From Fervidobacterium nodosum Rt17-B1 (GTDB lineage Bacteria; Thermotogota; Thermotogae; Thermotogales; Fervidobacteriaceae), in assembly GCF_000017545.1 (NCBI RefSeq), contig NC_009718.1, forward strand, positions 1,550,001 to 1,614,000: a DNA stretch of 64,000 nucleotides, written 5' to 3'. The notes under the pieces were generated by a model. It saw only the letters and a program-made list of their open reading frames with translations, did not search any database and was not told where the DNA came from. This document shows positions 49,696 to 61,722 of this stretch, piece by piece (position 1 is the stretch's first letter; every line of letters starts with the position of its first letter). Made by a program: the position numbers and the translations under genes.

Positions 49696-50871
49696 TTATC
49701 CTCTGAGTAATTGCAATACATTCTGTGGTAAACCATTGGATTGAGCAAGCATTGCCATGCCAGATTGCATCAAAATTTGTTGCTTTGTAAACGCCATCAT
49801 TTCTTTTGCCATGTCTGCATCTCTTATTCGGCTTTCGGCTGCTGTTAAGTTTTCTGCGGCAACTCCGAGGTTTGCTATCGTATGTTCCAGTCTATTTTGA
49901 ATTGCACCAAGTTGTGAACGTATGGAACTTACTTTATGAATTGCTCCATCAATTACACTTATTGCTCTTTCTGCAGCATTTTGTGATGTAACTTTTAAAA
50001 CTGTGGTAATAAGCCCGAGGTTTTTGGAGTCTACAGCATCAATTCCGGCTACCATGTTTGCGCCTTCGTTTGCACCGATTTGGAAAATAAGCTGATTTCC
50101 TGTTGTATTTAATCCTTCAACTCTGGCAACACCGGTATCTATAACTGTTTCTTTTGGTAGTGCTCCTCCAAATTGATTTATGTTGAATCTTGTGGTATTC
50201 CATGTTACTTTTATTCCACCAATTGTTACATAGCCTACTGTGTAGTTTTTAACTGTTGCAACCGTTGTCCCATTGTTTTTAATTAAGACTACTCTTGCAT
50301 CAAGATTACTCGTTGTTGTTCCTTGGAATTGCCCAATTTCGAGTATATAAGTTCCTTCAACAACACTTACGTATGAACTTGCGATTGAAACTTTCAAATC
50401 AATATTACCTTCAGCGACGACTTTTGCGTCTGGCGCGGCTCTAAAACCTTCAAGATTACCGTTTAAAAGTTTTTTAGTGTTGAATTCTGTTGCTCTGCTT
50501 ATTCTATCGATTTCATCTCTTAGTTGGTCAATTTCTGCTTGAATGTTCCATCTATCAACGTCTGTGTTTGTGTCAGTTGCGGCTTGTACAGCTAATTCTC
50601 TCATCCTTTGGAGTATAGCGTGGATTTCGTTTAGTGCTCCTTCAGCAGTTTGAATAAGTGAAATAGCGTCTTGTGCGTTTTTGCTAGCCATCTCAAGCCC
50701 CTTGACCTGTCCTCTCATCTTTTCGCTGATTGCAAGACCTGCTGCATCGTCACTGGCTCTATTGATTCTTAAACCGGAAGAAAGCCTTTCAAGACTCTTT
50801 TTCATGTCCGAATCTGTTAATGTAATCTGCCTCCATGCGTTAAGAGCAGACAAGTTGTGGTTAATCCGCAT
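49696..50871 (-). CDS. Flagellin, first copy
   Basis: Filament subunit of 391 residues. Conserved N-terminal D0/D1 (1-140, MRINHNLSALNAWRQI, LERLSSGLRINRASDDAAGL), a variable middle (about 150-285) and conserved C-terminal D1/D0 (ENLTAAESRIRDADMAKEM, then ...LPQNVLQLLRG). It is more diverged than the two flagellins at 53731 and 55125. Only 45 bases separate it from the large glycosyltransferase gene upstream and no own sigma-28 promoter is seen there, so the two are probably co-transcribed. Confidence 0.95.
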   Translation of the reverse strand: MRINHNLSALNAWRQITLTDSDMKKSLERLSSGLRINRASDDAAGLAISEKMRGQVKGLEMASKNAQDAISLIQTAEGALNEIHAILQRMRELAVQAATDTNTDVDRWNIQAEIDQLRDEIDRISRATEFNTKKLLNGNLEGFRAAPDAKVVAEGNIDLKVSIASSYVSVVEGTYILEIGQFQGTTTSNLDARVVLIKNNGTTVATVKNYTVGYVTIGGIKVTWNTTRFNINQFGGALPKETVIDTGVARVEGLNTTGNQLIFQIGANEGANMVAGIDAVDSKNLGLITTVLKVTSQNAAERAISVIDGAIHKVSSIRSQLGAIQNRLEHTIANLGVAAENLTAAESRIRDADMAKEMMAFTKQQILMQSGMAMLAQSNGLPQNVLQLLRG

Positions 50872-50916: not shown

Positions 50917-53550
50917 TTATTTTTCAAATATAACCGCTCTCAAGTGACCTGTGAGAATAATATGTTTAATTCTTTTAATACTCAATTTTTCCAATTCATC
51001 GTTTATAGCCTTTCTATTTCGGAAAACTCTAAACAATGGATAATACCAAGCGATATCACTTTTGTTTTCAAAGTTCGGAACGAAATAGAACAATAGTCCA
51101 CTCTTGTATTTACTCAAAATTTTGCTGATTTCTATTTCTGTATTCAAAAGTTCAAAACTAACTATACTTTCTGAATTTTCTTTATATTCTATCCCAATCT
51201 CTTTCACAGCGCTTGTAATAGTTTTTTTCAATTCTTCATCATCTTCAAGCAGAGAAATTTCGTTCACATTCAATTCGTTCAAGCTTTTTAGTAAGTCTTC
51301 CATTCCAACGGAGAATTTTGGCAATTTGTAACTTTTTAATCTTTCCTTGTAAACTTTCAAAACTTCACTCTTGGGGAATGGATAAGCATAGTAATAGTTG
51401 TTCGCCTTTTTCCATGCACGTATTGGTGAAATTACCCCTAATCCAGAGTGCTTTTCTGATATATTTCCAACCCACACAATTTCATCATTGGGTGAACCGA
51501 TTTTTTCAGAAGGATAAAACCCATCAAATTTATATATTCCAATACCTAAGTCAGCTAAATTGAAATTCTTTTTGCATGCTTCAACATGCAATTCGTAGGC
51601 TTTTCTTAAATCTTCTTGGTTTTCAGATTTTTCGAATATCTTTGCAAGCCTAAAGTTGTAAAAATAGAACTTATCTTTATTTTCGATTTTTTCCAAAAAT
51701 TGCTTTGCTTTGTCAATATTTGAATCGTAAAGATAAACCGAACTTACGTATTTAGCAAAATCGCTATCTGAGATTAAGTAAATCTTTTTGAGTTCTTCGA
51801 CATTGAATTCTTTTGAAAGGTCAGTAAAGAATTCCTTAGCTTTTGTATAATACTCTTTTATCTCTTCAAAAGCACCGTCGATCTCTGTGTCCAACTTTGT
51901 TTTTAAATCCTCCAAAACCGGTTTTATAAATTTCCCGAGTTCTGGTAAAGTATCAATTGAACGTTTGTAGTAATCAAGAGCAAGTTTAAAATTCCCCATT
52001 TTCAAATAAGTATCGCCTATTAAGGCAAGTGAAACTCCTTTTAAGGTTTCATCTTCCGATTTACGTATTTCATTCAATAATTTCAATTTTTCCGTTGTTT
52101 CACCTTTGAAATTTTCAAAATAAAATATCAAACTGCCTAATCCATATTTTTTAATTCCTTCGATTTTGTCTTCACCAAGGATGTAATCTAAAAGATAATC
52201 ATTACCACTCTCTAGCCTTTTTAAAACATAATCTTCAAATTTACTTTTCACGTGTGGACGATAAAGTTCCACATTGTATGTTCTACCACTTTCTAAATCT
52301 TTTTCTATAAAGTCAAGTATGTTAAGCCTAACACCTAACTGAGAAGCTTCTAATAATAACTTGTCGATTTCTTCAGATAACGAAGCGTAATCTTCGTTAT
52401 CAAGTTCAATAATGTATTTAGCTAACGACTTCAAAAGCTTTGGGAGGTCTTCGCCAGTCTTTTTTGCTTCTTCAAATATTAAATAGTAATTCTCCTTAAA
52501 TTCTTTTAGTCTTTTAGCTTTTAAATAACCAATACAGAGAAGTGTTCGTGCTGAAGCTTTGTATTTTATCGTAATTATTGTCCATCCATATTTTTCTGGG
52601 TGCTCTTCAACATCTTTTATTTGTTCAAAGAATTTTTCGCCGTGTGGTATAAGCTTATCAAATTCTTTTCTAGCCTCATCGATTCCAAGAAGTCCGTAAT
52701 ATGGATCAGGATTATTTGAATTTAGGGAAAGAACTAATTTAAACATTCGCTCTGCCAAATCGTATAAACCTTTTGACATGAGGTCCAAACCATGTAAGAA
52801 AAATACTTCAAAACCTATAGAATTTATTCTTTGCTCCTTTTCTACAAGAGAGAATATTTCTTCAACTATTGGATATTTGTTATATCTGGATTCATACATA
52901 GACTCGGTTTTGTAAAGTTGACATAAATAATATATTCTTTCTATATTGGACATATCTTTTTTTTCATTAAGAAGCTTAACTAAAAGATTTCTTGTTCTTT
53001 CGTACTTTTTTTGCTTTAATTTTCTTGTCCAAATATATCCGTAGTGGTATATTATAAACGGAGCTTCAACAACTTTACCTTTGTAAATTGGTTGGTTATG
53101 GACTATATTTTCATATCTTACCGTTCCATTTCTGAAAATTCTCGCGGTTGATGCAACTTCGGTTCTTTTTAAATCCCAGTCGAGATAACTTATTGTAGGA
53201 AGATAAACAGTATTTACATCTTTTGGTAAACTTGCTAAAAACTCTCTTATTTTACCAAAATCTTCCTTAACTTCTTCATCGGCATCGTATATCAATACCC
53301 ATTCACACGTTGGAAATTGCAATGAATAGTTTCTGGCTTCTGAAAAATCATCCCGCCATTCGTGAAAATAAACTTTATCAGTATATTTCTTCGCAATTTC
53401 AACACTATTATCCGTTGAGCCTGTGTCAACAACAATTATTTCATCAACATACGGTTTTATACTGCCCAATGCCCTGTCCAAGTTGTGCTCTTCATTTTTC
53501 ATTATCATTGCAACACTTAGTAAGCATTTATTTTCAGGTTGCTTTGACAC
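50917..53550 (-). CDS. Large glycosyltransferase with TPR-like repeats, probably acts on flagellin
   Basis: Protein of 877 residues. The N-terminal family-2 glycosyltransferase domain (about 8-200) has LSVAMIMKNEEHNLDRALGSI, IIVVDTGSTDNSVEIAKKY and the metal site LIYDADEEV. The rest is helical, with TPR-like units (DTYLKMGNFKLALDYYKRSID around 535-555) and a C-terminal domain I do not recognise. It lies between flagellin genes; such genes often glycosylate flagellin, so that role is inferred from position. Confidence 0.8.
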   Translation of the reverse strand: MSKQPENKCLLSVAMIMKNEEHNLDRALGSIKPYVDEIIVVDTGSTDNSVEIAKKYTDKVYFHEWRDDFSEARNYSLQFPTCEWVLIYDADEEVKEDFGKIREFLASLPKDVNTVYLPTISYLDWDLKRTEVASTARIFRNGTVRYENIVHNQPIYKGKVVEAPFIIYHYGYIWTRKLKQKKYERTRNLLVKLLNEKKDMSNIERIYYLCQLYKTESMYESRYNKYPIVEEIFSLVEKEQRINSIGFEVFFLHGLDLMSKGLYDLAERMFKLVLSLNSNNPDPYYGLLGIDEARKEFDKLIPHGEKFFEQIKDVEEHPEKYGWTIITIKYKASARTLLCIGYLKAKRLKEFKENYYLIFEEAKKTGEDLPKLLKSLAKYIIELDNEDYASLSEEIDKLLLEASQLGVRLNILDFIEKDLESGRTYNVELYRPHVKSKFEDYVLKRLESGNDYLLDYILGEDKIEGIKKYGLGSLIFYFENFKGETTEKLKLLNEIRKSEDETLKGVSLALIGDTYLKMGNFKLALDYYKRSIDTLPELGKFIKPVLEDLKTKLDTEIDGAFEEIKEYYTKAKEFFTDLSKEFNVEELKKIYLISDSDFAKYVSSVYLYDSNIDKAKQFLEKIENKDKFYFYNFRLAKIFEKSENQEDLRKAYELHVEACKKNFNLADLGIGIYKFDGFYPSEKIGSPNDEIVWVGNISEKHSGLGVISPIRAWKKANNYYYAYPFPKSEVLKVYKERLKSYKLPKFSVGMEDLLKSLNELNVNEISLLEDDEELKKTITSAVKEIGIEYKENSESIVSFELLNTEIEISKILSKYKSGLLFYFVPNFENKSDIAWYYPLFRVFRNRKAINDELEKLSIKRIKHIILTGHLRAVIFEK

Positions 53551-53644: not shown

Positions 53645-53680
53645 AAAACCAAAAGCGGGCGAATGCCCGCTTTGGTTTTG
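53645..53680 (-). terminator. Terminator after the second flagellin, slightly damaged
   Basis: AACCAAAAGCGGGC pairs with GCCCGCTTTGGTT, but one T is missing compared with the copy at 55036-55075, so one A bulges out. The GC-rich part is intact, and termination is probably still good. Confidence 0.85.
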
Positions 53681-53730: not shown

Positions 53731-54900
53731 TTATCTGAGTAATTGCAATACTTGTTGTGGTTGAGCGTTTGCTTGTGCAAGCATTGACATACTCGATTGC
53801 AACAGTATCTGTTGTTTTGTGAATTGCATCATCTCTTTTGCCATATCTGCATCTCTTATTCGGCTTTCCGCTGCTGTTAAGTTTTCTGCTGCTACTCCCA
53901 GGTTCGCTATCGTGTGTTCAAGCCTATTCTGGATAGCACCGAGAGCTGCCCTTGCCGTACTTACTCTGTGAATTGCTGCATCCACTACCATTATTGTTTT
54001 TTCAGCACTGTTTTGATCTGTTACTTTGAGTGTTGATGTCAACAATCCAAGAGCTTTCGCGCTCATATTGTCGATACCAGCGATCATGTTGTGACCTTCG
54101 TTTGCGCCGATTTGGAAGACTAATTGATTGTTTGCTGTGTATCTTGCTTCCACTCTTACCACTGCGCTATCTATTACTTCGTTCACTGGTAAAGCGTCGC
54201 CAAAATCGGAAATGGTGAATACTCTTTGCCACTTAATTGTTACGTTACCAAGCGCTGCGGAGAGAGCACCTATTGTTGCAGTAGTTGAATTTAATACTGT
54301 ACCATTGTTACCTATTTGGGTAATTTTAACATCAAGCTGTGATGTAACAGCACCCTTGAATTGTCCAACCTCTATAACATATGTTCCTTCTGTTGCACCA
54401 GTTTTTGAATAACCACCTACAGTTACGTTAATATTACCTCCGGTAACGACTTTAGCATCTGGAGTATTTTTGAACCCTTCGAGTTTACCGTCGAGAAGTT
54501 TCTTTGTGTTGAATTCTGTTGTTCTTGCTATTCTGTCAATTTCTTCCCTTAATTGATCGAGCTCTGCTTGTATTTGATTTCTATCAACGTTTGTGTTTGT
54601 GTCACTTGCTGCCTGTACGGCTAGTTCTCTCATTCTTTGGAGTATTGAGTGTACTTCTGTTAATGCTCCTTCTGCTGTTTGAATCAATGATATCGCGTCT
54701 TGTGAGTTTTTAATTGCCATGTCAAGACCTTTGATTTGACCTCTCATCTTTTCACTGATAGCCAAGCCTGCTGCATCGTCTCCAGCTCTGTTGATTCTTA
54801 AACCAGATGAAAGTCTTTCAAGAGTTTTGCTCATGTCCATGTTGGTCATGGATATGTTTCTCTAGCTGTTCAAAGCGTTGACGTTATGGTTAATCCTCAT
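53731..54900 (-). pseudogene. Flagellin, second copy, with an amber codon at position 13
   Basis: Read from the ATG at 54900, the frame is 389 codons long and closely matches the third flagellin, but codon 13 is TAG where the paralogue has TGG (Trp). The rest is open. The next ATG (54849) would give 372 residues without the first 17, which belong to the D0 helix needed for export and polymerisation. The RBS and sigma-28 promoter are kept. It may be a recent pseudogene, a sequencing error or a gene rescued by suppression or recombination with its neighbour. Confidence 0.88.
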
Positions 54901-54948
54901 ATCTTTCCACCTCCATGTGGGTTTTGTTTCCTTAGATTTTTTAAAATT

Positions 54949-54969
54949 TGGCAACCAAGGATGCTTTTA
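54949..54969 (+). repeat. 21-bp inverted repeat, left copy (flagellin leader)
   Basis: The 21 bases starting TGGCAACCAAGGATGC are found again in exact inverted orientation at 56364-56384. This copy lies in the 5' leader of the second flagellin, 17 bases after its likely transcription start. Confidence 0.92.
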
Positions 54970-54992
54970 AAGGATACTTTAATACCATAAGC

Positions 54993-55020
54993 ATTATCGG
55001 ATAAGTTTTATTTTTTTTTA
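54993..55020 (-). promoter_or_regulatory. Sigma-28 (FliA) promoter of the second flagellin
   Basis: On the minus strand TAAA (55017-55020), 16 bases, then CCGATAAT (54993-55000). This is the flagellar sigma-28 pattern with exact spacing, about 95 bases before the start codon. Confidence 0.82.
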
Positions 55021-55035
55021 GGGTAAAAATCATAA

Positions 55036-55075
55036 GAAAAACCAAAAGCGGGCGAATGCCCGCTTTTGGTTTTGA
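55036..55075 (-). terminator. Terminator after the third flagellin
   Basis: AAAACCAAAAGCGGGC and GCCCGCTTTTGGTTTT form a perfect stem with loop GAAT. It is nearly the same as the terminator of the second flagellin and shows that the duplicated unit includes the 3' region. Confidence 0.93.
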
Positions 55076-55124
55076 ACTGTATTCAATTTGACTTTGTAAA
55101 TGATTTTGTAAATTATTAGAATTA

Positions 55125-56294
55125 TTATCTGAGCAATTGCAATACTTGTTGTGGTTGAGCATTTGCTTGTGCAAGCATCGACATACTCGATTGCAACAGT
55201 ATCTGTTGTTTTGTGAATTGCATCATTTCTTTTGCCATATCTGCGTCTCTTATTCGGCTTTCTGCTGCTGTCAAGTTTTCTGCTGCCACTCCAAGGTTCG
55301 CTATCGTGTGTTCAAGCCTGTTCTGAACAGCACCGAGAGCTGCCCTTGCTGTACTTACTCTGTGAATTGCCGCATCCACTACCATTATTGTTTTCTCAGC
55401 ACTGTTTTGATCTGTTACTTTAAGTGTTGATGTTGATAAACCAAGAGCTTTCGCACTCATATCATCGATACCAGCGATCATGTTGTGACCTTCGTTTGCA
55501 CCGATCTGGAAGACTAATTGATTGTTTGCTGTGTATCTTGCTTCCACTCTTATCACTGCGCTGTCTATTACTTCGTTTGTTGGAAGTGCGCCACCAAAAT
55601 CGGAAATGGTGAATACTCTTTGCCACTTAATTGTTACGTTACCAAGCGCTGCGGAGAGAGCACCTATTGTTACAGTAGTTGAATCTAATACTGTACCATT
55701 GTTACCTATTTGGGTAATTTTAACATCAAGCTGTGATGTAACAGCACCATTGAATTGTCCAACCTCTATAACATATGTTCCTTCTGTTGCACCAGTTTTT
55801 GAATAACCACCTACAGTTACGTTAATATTACCTCCGGTAACGACTTTAGCATCAGCACTACTTCTAAATCCTTCGAGTTTACCGTCGAGAAGCTTCTTTG
55901 TGTTGAATTCTGTTGTTCTTGCTATTCTGTCAATTTCTTCCCTTAATTGATCGAGCTCTGCTTGTATTTGATTTCTATCAACGTTTGTGTTTGTGTCACT
56001 TGCTGCCTGTACGGCTAGTTCTCTCATTCTTTGGAGTATTGAGTGTACTTCTGTTAATGCTCCTTCTGCTGTTTGAATCAATGATATCGCGTCTTGTGAG
56101 TTTTTAATTGCCATGTCAAGACCTTTGATTTGACCTCTCATCTTTTCACTGATAGCCAAGCCTGCTGCATCGTCTCCAGCTCTGTTGATTCTTAAACCAG
56201 ATGAAAGTCTTTCAAGAGTTTTGCTCATGTCCATGTTGGTCATGGATATGTTTCTCCAGCTGTTCAAAGCGTTGACGTTATGGTTAATCCTCAT
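55125..56294 (-). CDS. Flagellin, third copy (intact)
   Basis: Complete flagellin of 389 residues with the start MRINHNVNALNSWRNISM, conserved D0/D1 blocks at both ends, and the C-terminus ending ...QPQQVLQLLR. The first 480 bases and the 3' third are almost identical to the second copy, and differences gather in the middle, as expected for duplication with gene conversion. GGAGGTGG precedes the ATG, and a sigma-28 promoter is present. It is probably the main filament subunit of this pair. Confidence 0.96.
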   Translation of the reverse strand: MRINHNVNALNSWRNISMTNMDMSKTLERLSSGLRINRAGDDAAGLAISEKMRGQIKGLDMAIKNSQDAISLIQTAEGALTEVHSILQRMRELAVQAASDTNTNVDRNQIQAELDQLREEIDRIARTTEFNTKKLLDGKLEGFRSSADAKVVTGGNINVTVGGYSKTGATEGTYVIEVGQFNGAVTSQLDVKITQIGNNGTVLDSTTVTIGALSAALGNVTIKWQRVFTISDFGGALPTNEVIDSAVIRVEARYTANNQLVFQIGANEGHNMIAGIDDMSAKALGLSTSTLKVTDQNSAEKTIMVVDAAIHRVSTARAALGAVQNRLEHTIANLGVAAENLTAAESRIRDADMAKEMMQFTKQQILLQSSMSMLAQANAQPQQVLQLLR

Positions 56295-56363
56295 ATCTTT
56301 CCACCTCCATGTGGGTTTTGTTCCATTAATAATTTTTCTATCAAGTTAGTGCTCGTAAGTTTA

Positions 56364-56384
56364 TAAAAGCATCCTTGGTTGCCA
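56364..56384 (-). repeat. 21-bp inverted repeat, right copy (flagellin leader)
   Basis: Exact inverted match to 54949-54969. It lies at the very start of the leader of the third flagellin, just after its sigma-28 promoter. Together the two copies flank the third flagellin gene and the promoter of the second. Confidence 0.92.
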
Positions 56385-56389
56385 TAATT

Positions 56390-56417
56390 ATTATCGGAAT
56401 AAATTTGAGAAATTTTA
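56390..56417 (-). promoter_or_regulatory. Sigma-28 (FliA) promoter of the third flagellin
   Basis: TAAA (56414-56417), 16 bases and CCGATAAT (56390-56397) on the minus strand. Spacing and both boxes match the promoter of the second flagellin and the known sigma-28 consensus. Confidence 0.85.
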
Positions 56418-59064: not shown

Positions 59065-61722
59065 TTATTTTTTGCTAGCGACTATTATCATATTATGTGA
59101 CGAATTAGCAATTCCTGATACTGTTGAAATAGAATCAATTGAAAAATATTGGATTTTTTTGAAATATTTTTTTAGTAGATTATAAATTTCTATAATATCA
59201 TATTCCTTTATATGAAATGGATTTTTTATATGTTTTCTATTTATTCTGTTTGGAGTAGACATAATAAGCTTTCCATCTGATTTAATTACACGATATGCTT
59301 CCTTAATGTATTCTTCTACGTTTTCTAGTGGTAAATGTTCAATTGTTTCATATGAAACATATGCATTAAAATATTCATTATTAAAAGGTAACTTAGTTAC
59401 ATCAGCTTGAATCCAATCTATGTTATCTAATTTGAAATATTTCTTTCCGAATTCAATAGAATCTTTTGCTAAGTCAACAGCAGTAACTTTTTCAGCATGC
59501 GTAGATAAATAGGCAGCTCCATATCCAAATCCACTCGCGGCTTCTAAGACGTTGTCCGAAGATTTTATAAATGATGCTGCCAAATCATACTTTGAACTAG
59601 TTGTTAAAAGAGAAACAAAAGGCATAAATTCTGTTCCAGGAATGCCTCTTTCCCACATATATGCAATTTTATTTTTATTAACATTTTCTTTAAATTTTTT
59701 ATCGTAAATGAAACCATAGATTTTTTGTGATAGAAAAATATTTTTTTCTGTTAGTAAAATTTGCCTAACTATATTTAGAATTTCTTCTGGTTTTTGTGAT
59801 TTTCTTACATAATCAGGCAAAATAATTTTATTTGAATAAATGTCAATTATAATTCCTGAGATTATTATTCCATTATTTTCATTTTCTAAAATAAAATCTA
59901 ACATGTACATATTATCATTTATATGTTCGAACTTTCCGGCAACTATTTTGGAACTATCAAATGAGAAATTATTTATTAATTTGTTATTGTAGTGAAAGAA
60001 CTTTTCTATAGGAGTTATTGAATTAGGAGTGAATAATATTTGTTTTTTCGAAAACAATCCGAATACATAATCATTTACGTTTTCCAAAGAGAATATATCT
60101 ATAAGTGAAAAATCTTTAAAGTTTGTTAGTAATTCTAACATAAATTCTTTTAATGGATCAAAAATGGGTATAGCTATTAATATGTGTTCATAGTTAGTTT
60201 TAAATGCTTTTTCAATTGTTTCCTTTATATAAAATTTATTAAAATTACCAATGATATCATCAACGACAAATAATAATTTTTTTAAATTTATATTATTATT
60301 AATATAATCTTTTACTTCGTTACTAAGAGAGCTATTTTTATCCTTAATATATGGTAAAGTATAATTAATTTCCATCAAAGATTTAATTGTATTTTGAATA
60401 TTCAAAATTTGCTTTTCAAGGGAAGAATTCTTTTCCACAAATTCACGGTACTCTATGGAATTGTAATTAGGCGATACAATCATTTCTACAGCTTCATCTA
60501 TAGTTTGGAAAATGTAGTCTTTAGGGTAGAATTCCTCTGCTACATAGAAATTATGAATTACTGGTTTAATTCCTTTACTCATAGCTTCAAGTATTGCTAC
60601 ACCGTATCCTTCATGTATGCTAGTTGAAAGGAAAATGTTTTTATCTTCCAAATAATCTTCAACATTTTTGATAAATCCGTCGAACTTGAATTTGTCTTTT
60701 ATTTCCATCTTTTCAAGAATGTACGACACGTACCTATACATTCTTTCATCTTGCATTTGACCTGCCCAGAACAAGCTATAATTTGGATCTATATCTGTCA
60801 GTTTTTTCAATATTTGAGTAGCAAAAACAGGGTTTTTCTTGTAGTTGAAGTGCCCTACAAAAACAATGTTAGGACCTGGTTCCCTTATTTTGAAAGTAAA
60901 CTTAGTCAAGTCAATGCCGTTCCAGACAAGCGATTGAGGAATAAATTTTATTTGAGAACAGTTTTCAATGGTGGTTTTCAAAACATTTTCGGCAACAAAA
61001 ATAACATGATCAATTTTGTCCCACTTGATGTTTTTCAAGAAGTCTAAGCGAAGTGACTTATAGCCATGCAGTCTACACAAAATTTTCTTCCCTGCCTTTG
61101 GCAGTTTGTTTGTAATTTCTATGGCCAATTCATTAGCCCATTCGAGCCAAACAATGTCCGCCCAGTTGTAAGCTTCTTGAATCTGTCTTCCGTCAGTAGT
61201 GACTACGAGTTTTATTTCGTAGATATTTGACAAAATCTGAGCTATATCTTTTATGAAGTTATCCAAACCTGGAAGGCAAAAAAATGCTAACCTTTCATTT
61301 CTTTTGAAAAATTTCTTTGCTTCTTCGAATTTTTGTTTCATTTGTTCTGGAGCATTAAGTTCACAGGCTTTTCCGTAATAATGTATTGCCATTGCAGAAT
61401 TATTCTGCCTTAGTTGCGTGTCTCCCAAAAGATCGTATACTTCCCAGCTTTTGTTTTTTATTCGTGTCAGATATCTCCAAGATTCAAAGTAATTTTGCTT
61501 TTCAAATAATACTTTTGAATAGTTGAACAAAGCATCGTCATGTGTTGGATCAAATTCTAAGGCTTTTTTGAAATGATTTAGTGCATCATCTAGTTTGCCT
61601 TCTTGATAGAAAATTATTCCAAGTACGTTGTGCTTATCTACAGTAGATTCTATCTTGTCTGCATATTGTTTTGCCTTTTCAAATTCACCATTTTGGAGAA
61701 GCCTATTTATTTCATCTAACAT
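59065..61722 (-). CDS. TPR / family-4 glycosyltransferase / methyltransferase fusion protein
   Basis: 885 residues in three or four parts. TPR repeats come first (about 1-130, ALNHFKKALEFDPTHDDALFNYSKVL). A GT-B glycosyltransferase follows (about 140-440; NIVFVGHFNYKKNPVFATQIL and STSIHEGYGVAILEAMSKG). Then comes an AT-rich region of unknown fold (about 450-690). Last is a class I SAM methyltransferase (about 700-885; VLEAASGFGYGAAYLS, AVDLAKDSIEFGKK, SYETIEHLP). Glycan chain assembly and methylation on one protein is inferred. It may act on flagellin or surface polymers. Confidence 0.87.
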   Translation of the reverse strand: MLDEINRLLQNGEFEKAKQYADKIESTVDKHNVLGIIFYQEGKLDDALNHFKKALEFDPTHDDALFNYSKVLFEKQNYFESWRYLTRIKNKSWEVYDLLGDTQLRQNNSAMAIHYYGKACELNAPEQMKQKFEEAKKFFKRNERLAFFCLPGLDNFIKDIAQILSNIYEIKLVVTTDGRQIQEAYNWADIVWLEWANELAIEITNKLPKAGKKILCRLHGYKSLRLDFLKNIKWDKIDHVIFVAENVLKTTIENCSQIKFIPQSLVWNGIDLTKFTFKIREPGPNIVFVGHFNYKKNPVFATQILKKLTDIDPNYSLFWAGQMQDERMYRYVSYILEKMEIKDKFKFDGFIKNVEDYLEDKNIFLSTSIHEGYGVAILEAMSKGIKPVIHNFYVAEEFYPKDYIFQTIDEAVEMIVSPNYNSIEYREFVEKNSSLEKQILNIQNTIKSLMEINYTLPYIKDKNSSLSNEVKDYINNNINLKKLLFVVDDIIGNFNKFYIKETIEKAFKTNYEHILIAIPIFDPLKEFMLELLTNFKDFSLIDIFSLENVNDYVFGLFSKKQILFTPNSITPIEKFFHYNNKLINNFSFDSSKIVAGKFEHINDNMYMLDFILENENNGIIISGIIIDIYSNKIILPDYVRKSQKPEEILNIVRQILLTEKNIFLSQKIYGFIYDKKFKENVNKNKIAYMWERGIPGTEFMPFVSLLTTSSKYDLAASFIKSSDNVLEAASGFGYGAAYLSTHAEKVTAVDLAKDSIEFGKKYFKLDNIDWIQADVTKLPFNNEYFNAYVSYETIEHLPLENVEEYIKEAYRVIKSDGKLIMSTPNRINRKHIKNPFHIKEYDIIEIYNLLKKYFKKIQYFSIDSISTVSGIANSSHNMIIVASKK

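Follow-up and report, generated by a model that had tools for sequence, protein, structure and literature searches.

The 21-bp perfect inverted repeat in the flagellin locus of Fervidobacterium nodosum is probably a trans-acting mRNA-mRNA pairing element, i.e., one that would join two copies of the same message (homotypic) in species with a single leader of this kind and two different messages (heterotypic) in F. nodosum. Judged from sequence comparison and predicted folding, we assign this reading a probability of roughly 55%. The original prediction had offered two ideas, an invertible on/off switch and a pairing of the two flagellin mRNA leaders. The latter turns out to be better supported, because the two leaders in each of the genomes G014 and G011 are also complementary to each other and because relatives with a single leader carry a palindrome at the same place.

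All coordinates refer to the analysed stretch (the window), i.e., 64 kb of the single F. nodosum chromosome of 1,948,941 bases. The window holds three flagellin genes, all on the minus strand. F1 (49696-50871) is preceded by a glycosyltransferase gene and has no adjoining sigma28 promoter. F3 (55125..56294) is intact and encodes 389 aa with the domains PF00669 and PF00700. Its predicted sigma28 promoter TAAA-N16-CCGATAAT (56390..56417, minus strand) has a box that is kept upstream of orthologues, and the same pattern is seen in the sequence ahead of F2 (54993..55020, minus strand). F2 (53731..54900) shares 96% full-length identity with F3 and is interrupted by a TAG at codon 13 (54862..54864, minus strand; TGG in F3), which is why the listed F2 reading frame (53731-54849) starts internally. 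Within the first 400 nt, this amber codon is the sole difference between F2 and F3, with 47 of the 48 differences located further downstream. This near-identity indicates a recent homogenisation of the gene starts, with the amber codon arising later still. Each of the complete congeners G002-G004 has a single close F2/F3 relative alongside a single gene of the F1 type. An intrinsic-terminator-like hairpin lies 3' of F3 (55038..55073, minus strand); it is near-identical to the one after F2 (53645-53679; both AAAACCAAAAGCGGGC...), and the two are part of a tandem duplication. Also beside the flagellins, 50917-53550 and 59065-61722 encode large TPR and glycosyltransferase proteins, the second with an additional methyltransferase domain, that possibly serve flagellin glycosylation.

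The repeat is found as predicted, i.e., TGGCAACCAAGGATGCTTTTA at 54949-54969 (plus strand) and 56364-56384 (minus strand) with 21/21 complementary positions. Likewise, the promoters of F2 and F3 do point in the same direction while the repeats just downstream of them have opposite orientations, such that F3, its terminator and the F2 promoter are enclosed. Among the perfect inverted pairs of the window whose arms lie within 3 kb of each other, it is the longest, and base composition yields an expectation of 5e-9 complementary 21-nt stretches between the F2 and F3 leaders. Genome-wide, the repeat occurs in two copies, and its 20-nt core has no further match with up to 3 mismatches, which rules out a genome-wide repeat or mobile element. 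In 8 congeners, the repeat is missing.

Arm A (TGGCAACCAAGGATGCTTTTA in the F3 leader, 56364..56384, minus strand) occupies the site of a palindrome found in relatives, and its position and orientation match GGCAATCAAGGGCGCCCTTG in G010. Arm B (TAAAAGCATCCTTGGTTGCCA in the F2 leader, 54949..54969, minus strand) is the exact complement of arm A and constitutes an extra segment when the F2 leader is compared with that of G008. Next to it, F2 retains a decayed palindrome, TTAAAG-TATC-CTTTAA (54967..54982, minus strand). Arm B agrees with arm A at 20/20 positions; in contrast, 6/18 positions differ in the F2 version of the ordinary element (Fisher p 0.007). We had also considered arms A and B as survivors of one ancestral hairpin. 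This idea was dropped since the F3 orientation is the ordinary one, as seen from the G010 and G008 leaders, and since arm B is extra in F2.

With regard to the relatives, sigma28 flagellin leaders of most Thermotogota carry a perfect palindrome, the centre of which lies about 27 nt from where the predicted -10 box starts; this would place it within the transcript for the predicted transcription starts. The palindrome is clearly seen in 15 genera, with imperfect versions in another 5 (g7, g9, g10, g14, g33). The palindromes read CAAGGGCGCCCTTG in G008 and G010, AAGGGCGCCCTT in G005, GGGGATCCCC in G001, GGGGGCCCCC in G002, CCAGAGCGCTCTGG in G019, ACCCGGCGCCGGGT in g12 and g13, ACCAACGGGCCCGTTGGT in g8, CCTTAGCGCTAAGG and ATCTCTGGCGCCAGAGAT in g34, TCTCTAGCGCTAGAGA in g30, CCCATGGCCATGGG in g37 and g38, and AGGGTTCCGGAACCCT in g22. 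That is, the sequence differs completely between genera but the dyad is kept. Each palindrome position shows several pair types, including G-U pairs in several genera, and the central four bases are self-complementary in 37/38 leaders.

For an offset of 27, 51% of the positions are paired among 37 distinct leaders (10 of which are fully paired), compared to 17-30% at most other offsets; here, the centre was fixed beforehand rather than chosen as the best one per leader. Against dinucleotide shuffles, the combined p-value is 7e-16 (23 genera, one value each), which overstates independence because the genera are related. Among 15 further flagellin leaders with CCGATA, the element is present in the Thermotogota record L019 alone, and the remaining 14, which stem from other phyla, do not contain it. 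Rfam provides no match above the gathering score at the locus and no match whatever for the leaders of nine relatives; we therefore rejected a known RNA family. The open-access literature that we searched describes no palindromic or dimerising flagellin leaders. A self-complementary leader element thus appears to be conserved in flagellin genes across most of the Thermotogota and is seemingly undescribed.

The stretch is maintained by covariation as either self- or mutually complementary, the F. nodosum, G014 and G011 leaders showing this as pairs only. In F. nodosum, the element site reads CAAGGAT/GCTTTTA in F3 and TTAAAGTA/TCCTTTAA in F2. Neither pairs well with itself, and it is the extra segment beyond the element site in the F2 leader that exactly complements the F3 element. 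G014 (1,915,238 bases) has two sigma28 flagellins 24 kb apart, the leaders of which (ATGTCCAAGGCACTC and GAGTGCCTTGGACAT) are mutually complementary and not palindromic. The two G011 leaders pair over 15 bases, one G-U included, and the differences between G014 and G011 in the shared pairing core are A-U/G-U exchanges. In both G014 and F. nodosum, identity between the paralogues begins near the Shine-Dalgarno sequence and extends into the gene, while their leaders differ and yet complement each other. G014 and G011 show the same change from self- to mutual complementarity as F. nodosum, with another sequence.

This is also reflected in the predicted energies at 37 C. Folding the F2 and F3 leaders together, as the original prediction had proposed, results in a predicted binding of -27.1 kcal/mol; the respective values for the G014 and G011 leader pairs are -26.7 and -20.8 kcal/mol. 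None of 100 shuffled pairs reached the energies of F2-F3, G014 or G011. Predicted self-binding amounts to -7.8 (F2-F2), -3.6 (F3-F3) and -3 to -6 kcal/mol (Thermosipho-like leaders), compared to -12 to -20 kcal/mol for palindromic leaders. The remaining Fervidobacterium genomes have palindromes, as do G010 and G019 from the same family, which suggests separate origins of the two heterotypic cases. Given the shared core CCAAGG, a common origin of both is possible; the heterotypic case comprises two independent lineages at most.

The strongest competitor, which we nevertheless consider unlikely, is a replication accident. Here, template switching at the palindromic leader after the tandem duplication would have inserted a reverse-oriented copy of about 20 nt from the F3 leader into that of F2, leaving a functionless repeat and a decaying F2. 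Arm B indeed adjoins a decayed palindrome, i.e., a typical site of fold-back copying. The recent homogenisation of the F2 and F3 gene starts, the amber codon in F2 and the congeners without the repeat would fit such a history as well. Yet it leaves the mutual complementarity of the G014 and G011 leaders, which is of other sequence, unaccounted for, and arm B has remained unchanged although the adjoining F2 element diverged.

Alternatively, the palindrome could act at the DNA level as an operator, with a dimeric protein binding to it and thereby controlling transcription of the flagellins. Loopless perfect dyads that keep a constant distance to the promoter, as seen here, are typical of operators. 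What makes this quite improbable to us is that the sequence changes wholly between genera while the dyad stays, that G-U replacements preserve pairing in RNA but not in DNA, and that a dyad is missing from the F. nodosum, G014 and G011 leaders, which are mutually complementary instead. The latter observation bears in the same way on an intramolecular 5' hairpin that merely stabilises the mRNA, with incidental complementarity between leaders, since these three genomes' leaders lack the hairpin and are predicted to pair in trans. Some leaders do fold as hairpins, and the stems exceed the palindrome in G031, G021 and G044. In species with a single leader, the palindrome could alternatively fold intramolecularly into a hairpin with a 4-nt loop; still, the would-be loop consists of the very four central bases that are self-complementary in nearly all leaders, and we consider a hairpin-only role at least as improbable as an operator. 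Self-complementarity where there is one leader and mutual complementarity where there are two fit mRNA pairing better than either a DNA-protein site or a hairpin.

With regard to the invertible switch, in which recombination between the repeats would flip 1.4 kb and turn the two flagellins on or off, part of the original prediction stands. Perfect 21-bp inverted repeats do surround a promoter and a gene, and simulating the inversion of 54949-56384 reproduces the predicted outcome, i.e., F3 comes to lie head-on to its old promoter and F2 becomes promoterless. Both repeats are restored, F3 is then on the plus strand, and the F2 promoter faces the F3 promoter. Two meaningful states do not result, however: both genes would be off, F2 being already interrupted by the amber codon, and no state exchanges one flagellin for the other. 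A search for a recombinase elsewhere in the genome, as had been suggested, revealed no dedicated invertase. It found large serine recombinases in tandem at a distance of about 150 kb, which are the sole locus of the resolvase family, and one XerD-like protein beside rnc as the sole tyrosine recombinase. The large serine recombinase reading frames lie side by side (G000:C1:1757.6-1760.6 kb, L104) and probably stem from an integrated element. In the flagellar switch of C. difficile, RecV flips 154 bp and both orientations are seen (PMC5386303). The C. difficile repeats resemble those of F. nodosum in being inverted, 21 bp long and part of a flagellar 5' UTR. In F. nodosum, in contrast, a whole gene lies between the repeats, no invertase was found and the equivalents in relatives are unlinked. 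Given this anatomy, the missing invertase, the absence of the repeat from 8 congeners and the 24 kb between the analogous G014 repeats, we rejected DNA inversion as the main reading and regard it as very improbable.

Pairing of the leaders, the reading we prefer, would work as follows. In most Thermotogota, a short perfect palindrome about 15-20 nt from the predicted 5' end of the sigma28 flagellin mRNA would allow two copies of one message to pair. In F. nodosum, the gene would have been duplicated and the palindrome lost in both leaders, such that arm A of the F3 leader would now pair with the extra F2 segment, arm B, turning a self-pairing element into a heterotypic pair. We infer pairing between the leader RNAs of F2 and F3 inside the cell, which might protect an abundant message or couple it to CsrA-FliW control via GGA sites just downstream. 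As possible consequences, two leaders might be kept together for CsrA, degradation starting at the 5' end might be prevented, or RNase III might be provided with a site. F2, though interrupted, could still supply the RNA partner for F3. As F2 is interrupted, part of the pairing system may also be decaying.

The Shine-Dalgarno regions of F3 (56300..56312, minus strand) and F2 (54906..54918, minus strand) both read ACATGGAGGTGGA, which resembles a CsrA site; binding by CsrA is putative. Both csrA and fliW are present in the F. nodosum genome, i.e., the GGA motif at the Shine-Dalgarno sequence coincides with the genes expected for CsrA-FliW control of the leader. GGA motifs also follow the element elsewhere. 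In many genera, the loop of a second hairpin contains GGA (GCCCAAGGAAGGGC, CGCCAGGGAGGCG, TGCCAGGAAGGCA; L174-L206, L106-L131), and an ACAnGGAGGT Shine-Dalgarno sequence is present as well, in line with what is expected for CsrA sites. In B. subtilis, the flagellin mRNA hag is reportedly under CsrA-FliW control. In C. jejuni, the flagellin mRNA flaA is both a target and a titrator of CsrA within CsrA-FliW control (PMC4894983). The Thermotogota leaders resemble these targets in having GGA at the Shine-Dalgarno sequence and often also in the loop of an upstream hairpin, but differ in the palindrome or complementary arm upstream of the GGA sites. We know of no such element in studied CsrA targets.

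A more far-reaching version, which we hold only tentatively, is that Thermotogota flagellin mRNAs pair via their 5' ends as homodimers where there is one sigma28 leader and as obligate heterodimers where there are two, which would control stability, CsrA binding or co-translation, with F2 serving mainly as RNA partner of F3. If true, this would add a new level to the control of flagella, i.e., a phylum-wide leader element on a highly expressed message that becomes a matched pair given two genes.

To our knowledge, most natural cases of mRNAs that dimerise come from retroviruses and insect embryos. The flagellin element shares with such signals a short GC-rich self-complementary UTR stretch able to join two RNA copies, as in the palindromic dimerisation signals of HIV-1 (DIS) and the Drosophila oskar mRNA (reviewed in PMC7357161). 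It differs from both in that it resides in bacterial flagellin leaders, varies in sequence between genera, dimerises by prediction only and turns into a matched heterotypic pair given two leaders. Trans-acting antisense pairing is similar in that two transcripts from different loci show perfect 20-nt complementarity. Here, however, both partners are paralogue mRNAs with the same promoter type, and the relatives would pair with themselves instead.

Some leaders deviate from the general pattern. G012 (L124) and G013 (L153) have a b-type leader, GAGTGCCTTGGACA, without a palindrome and with 14/14 bases kept. No partner was found at the contig ends or at the syntenic a-locus, which holds no flagellin, and the b-type flagellin gene itself is incomplete in these assemblies. 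To explain the kept half-element, the partner must have been lost recently or missed in the assembly, or the element must have a different target. Genus g32 (L180-L196) shows sigma28-like boxes and several flagellins per genome, with neither palindrome nor mutual complementarity, and in G082 the stem is kept with a loop that is not self-complementary.

Finally, a transcript-start study of T. maritima reported no FliA motif (PMC3636130); the palindrome may serve as a landmark by which the sigma28 promoters of Thermotogota flagellin genes can be located. Outside flagellin leaders, AAGGGCGCCCTT occurs once, as part of a terminator-like hairpin that immediately follows a tRNA gene (L103, G003:C1:1893012).
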